This document shows positions 8,390-38,622 of a DNA stretch of 38,811 nt, piece by piece. Source of the DNA: Pseudomonadota bacterium (GTDB lineage Bacteria; Pseudomonadota; Gammaproteobacteria; Burkholderiales; Sulfuriferulaceae); contig JAJYHV010000012.1 of assembly GCA_021790515.1 (NCBI GenBank), forward strand, positions 1-38,811, in the 5' to 3' direction. Positions within the stretch are counted from its first letter, which is position 1. Each line of letters starts with the position of its first letter. The notes beneath the pieces are model-generated. The model was not told the origin of the DNA, did not search any database, and saw only the letters and a program-made list of their open reading frames with translations. Both the position numbers and the translations under genes were made by a program.

Positions 8390-9543
8390 GACAGGCTGAT
8401 GAAATACAAGCCGCCCTTGCCGGTTTGTACCAGCAGTCCATTGCGATATGGGACGGGGGCGGTGAGGATAGGAGAACCATCCGTGGCAATACGGGCGACA
8501 AAGTGGCCATCTTCCAAAGACAGGAAGTGAATGTAGCCTTGCAGATCGCCGACGGCCAGATAGTCACCGACACGGCATGGCGCAGTCAGCTGACGCAGGT
8601 GCAACGCGCTTTGTTTCCACAGGTTGACGCCGTGTTCGCTTTCAAAGGCGTAGACATTGCCTTCCGTGTCGCTGACATAAATGTTGTTGTCATCCATGGC
8701 GAGTCCGCTGGTGCTGGACATATCCTTGGCCCAGAGCTGGTTGCCGCTGTGGACATCGAAACAGGAAAGCCGCCCCTGAAAATTGACAGCGCATGCTTCG
8801 TGATCGTTGACGACCGGATTGCTGGTGACGTCGTTGATACGCTCGATTTCTGTTGCGCCATGCGGAATGGATACTTCGGCATCCCATCCTATGCTGCCGG
8901 TGTCCAGTGTCAGGGCAAGCAGTTTACCGCCCGCATAACCTGCGAATACGCCACCTTTGTACAGAACAACACCAGCCTGGCTTTGCAGGGTAAGTGACGG
9001 TAAGGTGTGGCGGTAACGCCATTTTTGCACGCCGGTCGCTGCATCAAGCCCATAGATGTCGCCATCGCCAGTGCGTACGACCAAAATGCCGTCAGCTGCC
9101 CTGGGCAGACCTTCAATGCTACTGGAGAGTGTGGTTTTCCAACGCTGTTTGCCGCCGGCGTCATAGGCAATCAGTTCACCTTTTTGGGTGCCCAGAAACT
9201 CGCTGTCGAGTGAAGCACCAACGCCAGCGCTAAGATTCGCGGGCGTTTTTATTTTCCAGACACGTTGGCCATTTTGCGGATTGATGCGCGCCAGTTCATT
9301 ACGGTTGCTGGCAATGTAGATGGCGTCCAGCACGGCAGCCGGGCTGAAAGCGGCTGTTTTTTTGTCGGACAGACGGGTATGCCAGACCGTGGCGACATTG
9401 ATCTGGTTTTTGATGACTAATAGCGGAGCAGGTTTGGCAACGACCTGTTTTTTACCGCTGAACCAGTGCATGGGGTTCAGGCTTGCGCAGGCGCTGAGTG
9501 CCAGTGTGAGTAATAGGCTGGATGCTGCGAGTGGCAATTTCAT
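8386..9543 (-). CDS. bamB: Outer membrane protein assembly factor BamB
   Basis: BamB is the beta-propeller lipoprotein of the BAM complex, which inserts beta-barrel proteins into the outer membrane. The chosen start (9543) gives a lipoprotein signal [19 protein letters not shown] with Cys19, and 385 aa in total. The body shows repeated PQQ-like blades such as [13 protein letters not shown]-type stretches ([44 protein letters not shown]). It is coupled by 4-bp overlaps to yfgM upstream and der downstream. A longer frame upstream overlaps yfgM and is not credible. Confidence 0.95.
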
Positions 9544-35658: not shown

Positions 35659-36443
35659 TGATGCTGGTTGATTCGCATTGTCATCTGGATTTTCCTGCGT
35701 TTGCCGGGCAAGAATCGGCCGTGATGGACGCCATGCGCATGCATGGCGTCGGCCATGCGTTGTGCGTGTCTGTCAATCTGGCTGATTTTCCCCGTGTACT
35801 TGATCTGGCGACGCGGTATGCGCACATATTTGCCTCGGTCGGCGTTCATCCTGACAATGATGAGACAACCGAACCCGCACAGACCGAACTGGTGGCGCTT
35901 GGGCAGCATGAGCGGGTAGTGGCAGTGGGAGAAACCGGGCTGGATTATTATCGCTTGCAAGGTGATTTGGATTGGCAGCGCGAACGCTTTCGTACCCACA
36001 TCCGTGCAGCGATTGCCTTGAATAAGCCGCTGATTGTGCATACTCGCTCGGCGGCTGAAGATACCTTGCGTATTCTGCGCGAAGAGGATGCGGCACAAGT
36101 GGGTGGCGTGATGCACTGTTTTACCGAAAGCATGGATGTGGCGGAGGCAGCACTGGAACTGGGTTTTTATATTTCATTTTCGGGTATTGTGACGTTCAAG
36201 AGCGCTTTATCACTGAAAGAGGTAGCGAAACAGGTTCCGCTGGAACGAATTCTGGTTGAAACCGATTCACCCTATCTTGCCCCCGTGCCGCACCGCGGCG
36301 CTACCAACCAACCCGCCTGGGTACGTTATGTGGCCGAGGAGGTTGCCCGTTTGCGCGATATGCCGTTTGAGGCGTTGGTGCAAGCCAGCACGGCCAACTT
36401 TTTTCGGTTGTTTCGTGCGGCAAAGCCGGTGATAGTGGCATGA
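35658..36443 (+). CDS. TatD family metal-dependent hydrolase (YcfH type)
   Basis: This is a 261-aa TIM-barrel hydrolase of the TatD DNase family. Metal ligands are seen in VDSHCHLDF (His7, His9), VGETGLDYY (Glu), VHTRSA, and GVMHCFTES, with ETDSPYLAPVPHRG at the end, matching the YcfH branch linked to holB and tmk. The exact substrate is not known from sequence; TatD proteins act on nucleic acids, and some on D-tyrosyl-tRNA or other substrates. It overlaps the pilZ stop by one base and the next gene by 4 bp. Confidence 0.93.
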   Translation: MMLVDSHCHLDFPAFAGQESAVMDAMRMHGVGHALCVSVNLADFPRVLDLATRYAHIFASVGVHPDNDETTEPAQTELVALGQHERVVAVGETGLDYYRLQGDLDWQRERFRTHIRAAIALNKPLIVHTRSAAEDTLRILREEDAAQVGGVMHCFTESMDVAEAALELGFYISFSGIVTFKSALSLKEVAKQVPLERILVETDSPYLAPVPHRGATNQPAWVRYVAEEVARLRDMPFEALVQASTANFFRLFRAAKPVIVA

Positions 36444-36982
36444 GGCGATTTTTTGGGTTGTTGTTGCTGTTGAGTTTGACGGCTTGTGTGCCGGATGTTT
36501 TGCTGCCGTCTTCTTATACGTTCACGTCTGAAGCGATGCAGCAGGCGCTGGATAAATCTTTTCCTCTCGAAAAGCAGTATGCCGGGCTGCTGGATCTGAC
36601 GCTTTCCCAGCCTAAAATCGAATTGCGCCCGACCGAAAAACGTGTGGTGTTGACTTGCCGGACGACGCTGACGCTGCTTGCAGGCGAGCAACCGGTGCAA
36701 GGCGAATTACAGGTTTCCAGTCAATTGGCTTACGACGCCACGCAGCGTACCGTGGTATTGCAGCATCCTAAACTGGAAAAGGAAACTTTGAGCAACATTT
36801 CCGCATCCATGACTCCGATTTTGCAAAATATAACCGCAATGTTGGTGCAAAAGAAGATGGATGGTCTGGTGGTGTATACGTTTGCGCCGAACCAGTTGCG
36901 GGTGCTGGGGACGACATTGGTGCCGGACGACATCGATATCACCCCGTTCGGTGTGGTGCTGCACGTGAAACCTGCAGCATAA
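36440..36982 (+). CDS. YceB-like DUF1439 lipoprotein
   Basis: This is a 180-aa lipoprotein (MRRFFGLLLLLSLTAC, Cys16) resembling E. coli YceB and other DUF1439 proteins. Typical stretches are FPLEKQYAGLLDLTLSQPKIELRPTEKRVVL and the amphipathic beta pattern to the end (FGVVLHVKP). The fold is thought to bind hydrophobic ligands in the periplasm, but the function is unknown. It is the last gene of the long plus-strand run, coupled to tatD by a 4-bp overlap, and is followed by a 233-bp gap to the convergent porin. Confidence 0.85.
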   Translation: MRRFFGLLLLLSLTACVPDVLLPSSYTFTSEAMQQALDKSFPLEKQYAGLLDLTLSQPKIELRPTEKRVVLTCRTTLTLLAGEQPVQGELQVSSQLAYDATQRTVVLQHPKLEKETLSNISASMTPILQNITAMLVQKKMDGLVVYTFAPNQLRVLGTTLVPDDIDITPFGVVLHVKPAA

Positions 36983-37019
36983 AAAAAGCGCGATCCTTTG
37001 TCGAGTTACCTGGGGCGCT
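36981..37019 (-). terminator. Possible porin terminator
   Basis: On the minus strand AGCGC (37015-37019) can pair with GCGCT (36987-36991), followed by seven T residues (36981-36987). The loop is large (about 23 nt) and the distance from the porin stop about 200 bp, so this is only a candidate. Confidence 0.3.
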
Positions 37020-37036
37020 GCTGATTCGTCGTACCC

Positions 37037-37137
37037 GCAGGATGGCTGCGTGGTGCAGTGCAAGGCGCGAAATGCGACGTTGTGTTGCCCACAACCAGCG
37101 GTTCGCAACGATGCAATGTGCCGCGCAGCCGTCCTGC
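37037..37137 (+). repeat. 101-nt imperfect hairpin, pairing favours plus-strand RNA
   Basis: Arms 37037-37062 and 37112-37137 match at 21 of 26 positions as reverse complements. Four of the five differences are T/G pairs that allow G-U pairing only in plus-strand RNA, giving 25 of 26 paired bases. Nested inside are GCGAA (37067-37071) with TTCGC (37102-37106) and GTTGTG (37079-37084) with CACAAC (37090-37095). It lies between the converging yceB-like gene and porin. It could be a structured 3' end, a small RNA or a MITE-type repeat. Confidence 0.5.
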
Positions 37138-37215
37138 CCTTTGGGTTGCAACGGGCATGGCAAATCAAGCCCGACAGGCTCCTAGACAAGATGTTCGCGC
37201 ATGTGTGGGTGTTTT

Positions 37216-38622
37216 TCAAAAATTGTATTGTAACATCAATCTGTTATCAACATACGCCGTACCGACGAACGGGATGTCGTGTTCGATGCCGAGACGGTTT
37301 CTGATGGTCAATCCCTTGAGTGCGCCGCTGCAATGCCAGGCGATGTCCAGCATATACGCCGTGGCGTTGGCGACATAGGGCGCGGTGTAGTACCAGGAAA
37401 CGGTGGGCAGGATATCCAGTTGTTTCATCGGGTGCAGGTCTGAGCCCAGCATCCAGGCCGACCCCGGTGCGCGTGCCGACACCAGACCATAGTTCATCAC
37501 TGTGGTGTACAGCGGGTCGGTGTTGTAGATGAAGGTGTAGGGCGAATAAAAATTGCCGTTGTACACAGGCCCTGCGTAAGCGCCGTTCGGGTTGCCGGCG
37601 GTGCCACCAATTGCCGTGACCGTATTTTTGACAGCCTGGTTGTACGCCAGGAAGATATCGCTTTTGTTTTGGTCGAATTTCATTCCACCCTTGAAGCCGT
37701 AAATGTCGGCGTCGACCGAGCCGATGTCCCCCGAGCCATGTTCGTCGGCATTCTGAAAATCGAAAAAGAATTTGTGTCCGGCAAAGGTGGGGGTGTAGCC
37801 CGCTTCCACATACACCATGTCGGTCAGTCCATACCAATCGTAATACCATGCCTGCGCAAAACCCTGCGCGTTGTTCCAGGTCAATCCGGAATCAACTGCG
37901 CCGCCGCTCTGGCCGGGATAAACGACTTTGTCATATGACAACAGCGCCAGGCTGGTTTCAGAGAATGCGTCGTTGGTGCGGTTTTTGTAATCCAGAATGC
38001 GATCAAAGGAAAACTGCACGTCAGAAGCCAGGTTGATTTTGGTGCTGACGCCCTCGAACAGGTTGGGAATCATAAACCCGTCGCTCGGATTATTCCATGG
38101 GTTGTTGATGAGTTCGTTACCGGCGCGCAACATGAAGGTCTTGTTTTCATATTGCAGATACGCTTCGCCCAACATGCCCAGCGAGGGCGACGTGCCCATC
38201 AGCAAGGGGTTGAGATAGGGGAGGCCATAATTTGCCTTGTAATAGGGCGCGCTGTTGTAGGTATAATTGTTCAGGCCGACGTCATAGGCGAAATAATAGG
38301 CCAATGCGGCCGTGAAACCATCCCAGTTGGCGGTTTGCGCCTTGACCTTGCCGCCGAGCGAAAACGAATTCATGTCGGTCAGTTCGGTTTTCAGTTGCGG
38401 GCTGGATTTGTCGCCATAATACAGCGGAAACGGAGCGGATACGCTGTTGGAATCAGTGCCTGCGAAGTCGCGGCTGAAGTCGTAGACCCGGATGTCGCCA
38501 TTGACATTGCCGTTACCCAGCCAGTCGGTAAAATTGCTGACGGATACATCGTCGGCAAAAGAGGCTGCGCTGCTGATCGCCAGTATGGCCAGCACGAACA
38601 GAGATGGTTTTTTTATGCGCAT
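37216..38622 (-). CDS. OprD-like outer-membrane porin
   Basis: A 468-aa exported protein with signal MRIKKPSLFVLAILAISSAASFA (cleavage near residue 24) and alternating beta-barrel stretches rich in Tyr, Asn and Gly throughout. The final residue is Phe (VDNRLMLQYNF), the BAM recognition signal. GDIRVYDFSRDF near the N-terminus, VSWYYTAPYV, and RNRLGIEHDIPF near the end fit the OprD/OprB-like substrate-specific porins. Substrate cannot be told. AAGGGAG precedes ATG 38622. A long inverted repeat lies in its promoter region. It stands alone and converges with the yceB-like gene. Confidence 0.85.
   Translation of the reverse strand: MRIKKPSLFVLAILAISSAASFADDVSVSNFTDWLGNGNVNGDIRVYDFSRDFAGTDSNSVSAPFPLYYGDKSSPQLKTELTDMNSFSLGGKVKAQTANWDGFTAALAYYFAYDVGLNNYTYNSAPYYKANYGLPYLNPLLMGTSPSLGMLGEAYLQYENKTFMLRAGNELINNPWNNPSDGFMIPNLFEGVSTKINLASDVQFSFDRILDYKNRTNDAFSETSLALLSYDKVVYPGQSGGAVDSGLTWNNAQGFAQAWYYDWYGLTDMVYVEAGYTPTFAGHKFFFDFQNADEHGSGDIGSVDADIYGFKGGMKFDQNKSDIFLAYNQAVKNTVTAIGGTAGNPNGAYAGPVYNGNFYSPYTFIYNTDPLYTTVMNYGLVSARAPGSAWMLGSDLHPMKQLDILPTVSWYYTAPYVANATAYMLDIAWHCSGALKGLTIRNRLGIEHDIPFVGTAYVDNRLMLQYNF

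Follow-up and report, generated by a model that had tools for sequence, protein, structure and literature searches.

A hairpin downstream of a yceB-like gene is very probably the larger inner hairpin of a decayed MITE with IS1182-like ends

MITEs of the IS1182 family have been described in Methanosarcina acetivorans, where elements of 160 and 169 bp are reported with ISMac2 as their partner in the part of that study devoted to them (PMC3852290); the kind of element considered here is thus already known. Another study presents 67 stem-loop families that were new to it, and Bor-1 of Bordetella stands among the rows that carry no earlier reference (PMC2267715). That transcripts of MITEs form stable stem-loops is mentioned in a 2024 review of these elements in prokaryotes, whose main text uses neither of the words 'IS1182' and 'hairpin' (PMC10969869). 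A description of the present element was not found in the open-licence literature, covered mostly at the level of titles and abstracts, and searches of the literature for the terminal-repeat strings returned nothing relevant, the sole exact match being a primer. What is new here is the evidence that, across many genera and with differing terminal repeats, the interior fold is preserved by changes on both sides of its pairs, which makes an own function of a MITE interior testable.

The window analysed is a stretch of 38,811 nucleotides from a Pseudomonadota bacterium (contig JAJYHV010000012.1), in which a sequence-only reading had pointed to a possible structured RNA downstream of a yceB-like gene. 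The locus consists of the following parts.

36440..36982, plus strand: yceB-like gene (DUF1439), left neighbour, with its stop 54 nt before the hairpin
37022..37036, plus strand: left remnant of the element, the stretch inward of the left terminal repeat, which is itself gone; similarity starts at 37022
37037..37137, plus strand: hairpin A, 101 nt, with outer arms of 26 nt at 37037-37062 and 37112-37137; covariation in 33 aligned hairpins, that of the window included
37079-37084 / 37090-37095, plus strand: apical stem of hairpin A, with a loop of 5 nt
37138..37145, plus strand: CCTTTGGG, remnant of mini hairpin P3, which is CCTTCGGG in several other genomes
37146..37162, plus strand: junction at the place of the missing hairpin B, which the long form has, from comparison with the C10, C73, C30 and C19 copies
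37163..37181, minus strand: right terminal inverted repeat, GAGCCTGTCGGGCTTGATT, with one mismatch to the family
37182..37185, plus strand: CTAG, presumed right copy of a target duplication that is itself demonstrated for the C19 copy only
37216..38622, minus strand: ORF, convergent right neighbour, called porin-like from its appearance, with no Pfam match at E 0.001

The arms of hairpin A proved on recounting to be exactly as the sequence-only reading had described them: five of the 26 positions depart from perfect complementarity, and on the plus strand four of these are G.U pairs and the fifth is G.A. The plus-strand fold has an MFE of -65.8 kcal/mol (z -7.9) and the minus-strand fold an MFE of -53.0 kcal/mol (z -4.7), and on either strand none of 200 shuffles was as good. 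With one non-pair and wobble pairs tolerated, and 29-58 unpaired bases separating the arms, the longest plus-strand inverted repeat in the window is the one of 26 bp at the hairpin, against 17 on the minus strand and 17-24 in eight mononucleotide shuffles of the plus strand; the default repeat finder run on the window missed the hairpin. That the structure is no simple terminator, as had also been claimed, agrees with the finding of no terminator-like site within 36900-37300, where the succession of a stem and a T run that characterizes intrinsic terminators does not occur. Rfam gave no match at gathering score in the window, and the element offers an identity for this high-copy class of hairpins. 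At relaxed thresholds, a long copy from the same genome (L036) had no Rfam match up to E 5, and the locus L246 had nine sub-threshold matches, to eight microRNA families and rne-II, none of them useful.

The repeated unit is larger than the hairpin: it reaches from about 37022, where similarity to other copies sets in, to 37185, the last base of the CTAG that follows the right terminal repeat. A query of positions 36983-37215 against the genome of the window (G000; 1,995,863 bases in 80 contigs) gave 28 matches, the window itself counted, and five other genomic places share 91-99% identity with the stretch between about 37022 and 37152. Intact copies have GGAGCCTGTCGGACTTGATT and its reverse complement at their borders. 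In a copy-number search, as the sequence-only reading had proposed, the terminal repeat has 25 matches in this genome at up to three mismatches, with none for the reversed-pattern control, and measured from repeat to repeat four copies span 268 bp and one 174 bp, the rest being shorter or partial. The long form comprises hairpin A, the mini hairpin and hairpin B, and a branched fold is predicted for the whole. In intact copies GGAGCCTGTCGGACT precedes the stretch corresponding to 37022..37036, while the copy in the window has neither the left terminal repeat nor hairpin B and keeps the right terminal repeat. Since hairpin B is flanked by two GGTTGCAAC repeats in the 268-bp copies, slippage is the likely cause of its loss here. 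Two promoter-like consensus matches flank the window copy on the minus strand, at 37250-37222 and 37004-36976, where 0.2 would be expected in shuffles. Remnants that have lost one or both hairpins lie at L042:878-949 and L046:780-944, and a 50-bp stretch in another genome (G031:C73:73760-73809) holds only two facing repeats of another type. A separate repeat of about 68 bp occurs at L298:1422-1490 and 8392-8460 of the window's genome and at many places in the related genome G015.

That the element moved by transposition is seen at the copy at C19:44513-44780, opposite which G015 has an empty site, where the alignments of the two flanks overlap by 4 bases. The empty site reads GGGA-CTAG-ATGACAT, where the genome of the window has CCAG, the element and CTAG. 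The 4-base overlap together with the CTAG at the empty site implies an element of 266 bp with a 4-bp CTAG duplication, and the left CTAG of the C19 copy has since mutated to CCAG. The duplication is demonstrated at this one site, the window copy having no left end. The element is short, multicopy and without a transposase gene, and its intact copies have paired terminal inverted repeats, as is characteristic of MITEs. We consider it very probable (about 0.93) that the unit in the window is a decayed MITE with IS1182-like ends of the ISAzo2 group, whose intact form is 266 bp plus the duplicated CTAG, and that the window hairpin is its larger inner one, A.

The ends of the element recur widely, with CTAGGAGCCTGTCGGACTT found at up to one mismatch in 45 of 300 genomes of the order and no control hit among the matches listed. 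In G177 exact ends, 1,586 bp apart end to end, enclose a frameshifted transposase gene that matches NF033551 (IS1182) in two frames, each below the family cut-off when taken alone. A related transposase on plasmids is annotated as ISAzo2 family in Aromatoleum, and four of the five plasmid copies fetched have ends of the type CTAGCAGCCTGTCGGRCTT or CTAGGAGTCTGTCGGAC, with one or few differences, on both sides; the fifth has a more diverged end on one side only. IS1182 matches are also flanked by CTAG-type ends in G213 (both sides) and G061 (one side). An autonomous partner with the same ends is thus represented by G177 (exact ends, frameshifted gene) and by G213 and the plasmids (near-identical ends). 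We suggest that an IS1182-type transposase moved the element in trans; with no IS1182-family match in the window's own assembly, its source would have been lost or lie in a gap. The model of hairpin A gave nothing clear against 13 IS loci, the single match being at E 0.2, so that the interior of the element is not simply a deleted IS interior; derivation from the partner by deletion is not seen at these 13 loci. A blastn search of plasmids with the long copy from the window's genome and with L246 gave no matches.

An IS1182 match at E <= 1e-30 is present in 15 of the 43 genomes that were chosen because they carry the hairpin or the CTAG repeat, and IS1182 copies elsewhere have other ends, for example GAGGCTGTAGAAAAA. 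When the ends of 11 IS1182 loci were sought by inverted-repeat search, six pairs were obtained, all of other kinds, along with a weak pair at L353; L339, L340, L344 and L349 gave none, the bounds being off for L340, L344 and L349, and direct matching revealed CTAG-type ends at L340 and L349. The IS1182 copies at L232, L240, L233, L341-L343, L345, L354 and L347 have ends beginning GAGGCTGT..., GATTCTGT... or CAGGCTGT..., several of them flanked by, for instance, TAAC/GTT or GGCCG. Among the matches listed for named genome contigs, the core TGCAAGGCG is exactly present in none of 76 short CTAG-ended elements, and 38 of the 76 listed (L115-L231) are exactly 168 bp long. The hosts of these 168-bp elements without the hairpin core are as distant as Sulfuricella, Halomonas, Pseudomonas and Endozoicomonas.

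The hairpin itself belongs to a widespread family. Of 300 genomes from the order, 77 have a match at E <= 1e-4 to a covariance model of seven hairpins, and of 369 from the class, 70 have one at E <= 1e-5 to a model of 33 hairpins, the window's genome being counted in both; copy numbers are floors because only 11-13 candidates were scored per genome. These tallies were made without a shuffled-genome control, and their independent check is a terminal-repeat test on the best-scoring loci. In this test 50 of 53 hairpin loci are enclosed by inverted repeats that agree at 14 or more of 16 positions, against one of 53 with the right flank read backwards. The failures are L271, L301 and L308; the 53 were drawn from 58 loci (L245-L273 and L300-L328), of which L264, L302, L317, L322 and L327 were excluded as lying near contig edges. 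At least ten different terminal-repeat sequences surround the hairpin in these loci.

The covariance check proposed by the sequence-only reading gave a clear answer, as both sides change in 34 of the 38 base pairs in a MAFFT alignment of the 33 copies of hairpin A. Paired cells make up 93.4% of these 33 hairpins, compared with a shuffled mean of 70.8% (none of 500 shuffles as high), and pairing falls to 35-42% when the partner columns are slid by 1-3. Seven positions are invariant; in the window fold four of them make up the pairs C25-G77 and G28-C73, which flank an internal loop, G31 is paired, and A61 and A72 are unpaired. The outer arms are the most variable part of the hairpin, and their pairing is nonetheless kept. 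Hairpin B is a homologue of A, and its orientation is usually opposite to that of A. In 25 of 40 sources the A model finds it, with scores of 36-72 bits, at a distance of about 7 nt from A. In a set of 28 from 32 (L021, L256, L271 and L263 were dropped for truncation or insertion), 26 of its 29 predicted pairs have changed on both sides. At L260 and L262 hairpin B lies on the strand of A, flipped relative to the other elements.

The sequence-only reading had taken the bias towards G-U pairs as a sign that a plus-strand RNA is kept. The bias does extend to relatives: hairpin A, read on its own strand, has 68 G.T cells against 9 A.C cells, counts that are inflated because a G.U-favouring structure model chose the hits and related sequences are not independent. 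Counted per sequence, 26 of 33 lean towards G.T, one towards A.C and six towards neither, and the own strand folds more stably in 26 of 33 hairpins, the opposite strand in 7. Hairpin B has 55 G.T against 14 A.C on its own strand, a ratio freer of selection bias since B was extracted by position, though the core determined its orientation and its structure is a prediction; A and B pooled from 46 class-level modules give 97 against 13. However, the strand on which B shows this bias is usually opposite to that of A, so that selection is unlikely to act on a single RNA spanning the element. The bias is general, and it holds per hairpin rather than for one transcript. The data agree with a single-stranded action of each hairpin, whether as DNA or as RNA, two forms that the bias cannot separate.

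A structured RNA that controls the 3' end or the stability of the yceB transcript in cis would have in its favour the very stable plus-strand fold 54 nt past the yceB stop, and an insertion at this place could still influence the end of the mRNA. Conservation beside orthologous genes is absent, however: among 14 yceB loci of the genus the hairpin occurs only at that of the window, being missing from the 12 others that are informative downstream and from the available part of the thirteenth (L297, which ends at a contig edge just after yceB). In G015, whose yceB protein is 93% identical, the same gene converges on yceB, and the spacer between the two is shorter and has no element; as this spacer aligns poorly at the window locus, it documents absence and not a clean empty site. 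A protein-guided search of named genomes yielded no yceB relatives. With the same element at unrelated sites and no terminator-like pattern, we regard a yceB-specific RNA as highly improbable, and the candidate was rejected on the grounds that the hairpin is missing at other yceB loci and that the unit is a dispersed mobile element. What survives of the sequence-only reading is the structure, with its strong covariation on both sides of the stem, and the excess of G.T over A.C in relatives; its tie to yceB does not survive. Lying between two converging genes, the element is a passenger at the yceB locus.

For the decayed MITE with IS1182-like ends, the question becomes why its hairpins are kept. 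Quasipalindrome correction is template switching between the arms of a palindrome, and it could maintain the pairing of the outer arms in the absence of selection, leaving the hairpins as inert filler. This would suit the high variability of outer arms that are still paired and the copies from which whole hairpins have been cleanly lost, but correction would remove the internal loops and G.T pairs that persist, the invariant positions cluster around internal loops, and G.T exceeds A.C in A (68:9), in B (55:14) and in the class-level modules (97:13); as a full account it is doubtful. It is unlikely that the hairpins are bidirectional RNA features, protecting transcript ends or slowing transcription for host or element and so making insertion near gene ends tolerable. 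The window copy does lie between converging genes, and among the 27 of 51 loci that a crude count of ORFs could resolve, 10 arrangements are convergent, 14 tandem and 3 divergent; this count is too rough to serve as proof. In the other 24 loci the ORF calls extend into the element and gave no clear arrangement, and L264, L302, L309, L317, L322, L324, L327 and loci of less than 2,400 bases were skipped. The T run of an intrinsic terminator is also absent. Integron attC sites have the core motif GTTRRRY. A recombination site of single-stranded hairpins of this kind would account for the variable stems with their fixed core and for the preference of each hairpin for one strand; nevertheless, the motif is absent by eye from both strands of 37037-37137, and the copies are units bounded by terminal repeats and a CTAG duplication, which makes this reading scarcely credible. 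We tentatively favour selection on the single strand, in which some factor would bind the single-stranded form of each hairpin, as ssDNA in replication or transposition or as RNA. It is possible, and we put it forward with reserve, that the class to which this genome belongs, Gammaproteobacteria in the GTDB sense, contains a widespread and so far unnamed superfamily of MITEs with a common core of two hairpins, which would be selected as single strands, usually opposite ones, and has been combined with many types of terminal repeat. Such a core would be a portable single-strand recognition module for several transposition systems, or an aid to survival in the host. The window locus, a decayed MITE, is ordinary; the family behind it, with its conserved two-hairpin core, is the more interesting.

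Among known systems, ERIC and REP/BIME resemble the present element as dispersed palindromic repeats of bacteria, and are set apart by description only: their sizes and tags differ, REP/BIME having a GTAG/CGTC tag and an associated RAYT protein. Bordetella is possibly of a related host order. Its Bor-1 repeat, of 93-117 bp, and the other stem-loop families share with hairpin A their high copy number and intergenic position (PMC2267715); Bor-1 is likened to hairpin A by description only, not by sequence, and kinship is possible. The YPAL or RU-2 repeats of Yersinia are also dispersed and palindromic, of about 168 bp, and are said to be co-expressed with upstream genes; as described there, their inverted repeats are internal and their target duplications measure 3-26 bp, in contrast to the terminal repeats and 4-bp CTAG found here (PMC2229807). 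The ISAzo2-group IS1182 insertion sequences have ends of the type CTAGSAGYCTGTCGGRC with CTAG outside, and differ in encoding a transposase and in lacking a clear hairpin A or B. A conserved two-hairpin interior is not part of the description of the Methanosarcina acetivorans MITEs in the passages concerned with them, and the present element measures 266 bp; in being short, non-coding and multicopy, with inverted repeats assigned to an IS1182-family element, those MITEs and the present element are alike (PMC3852290).
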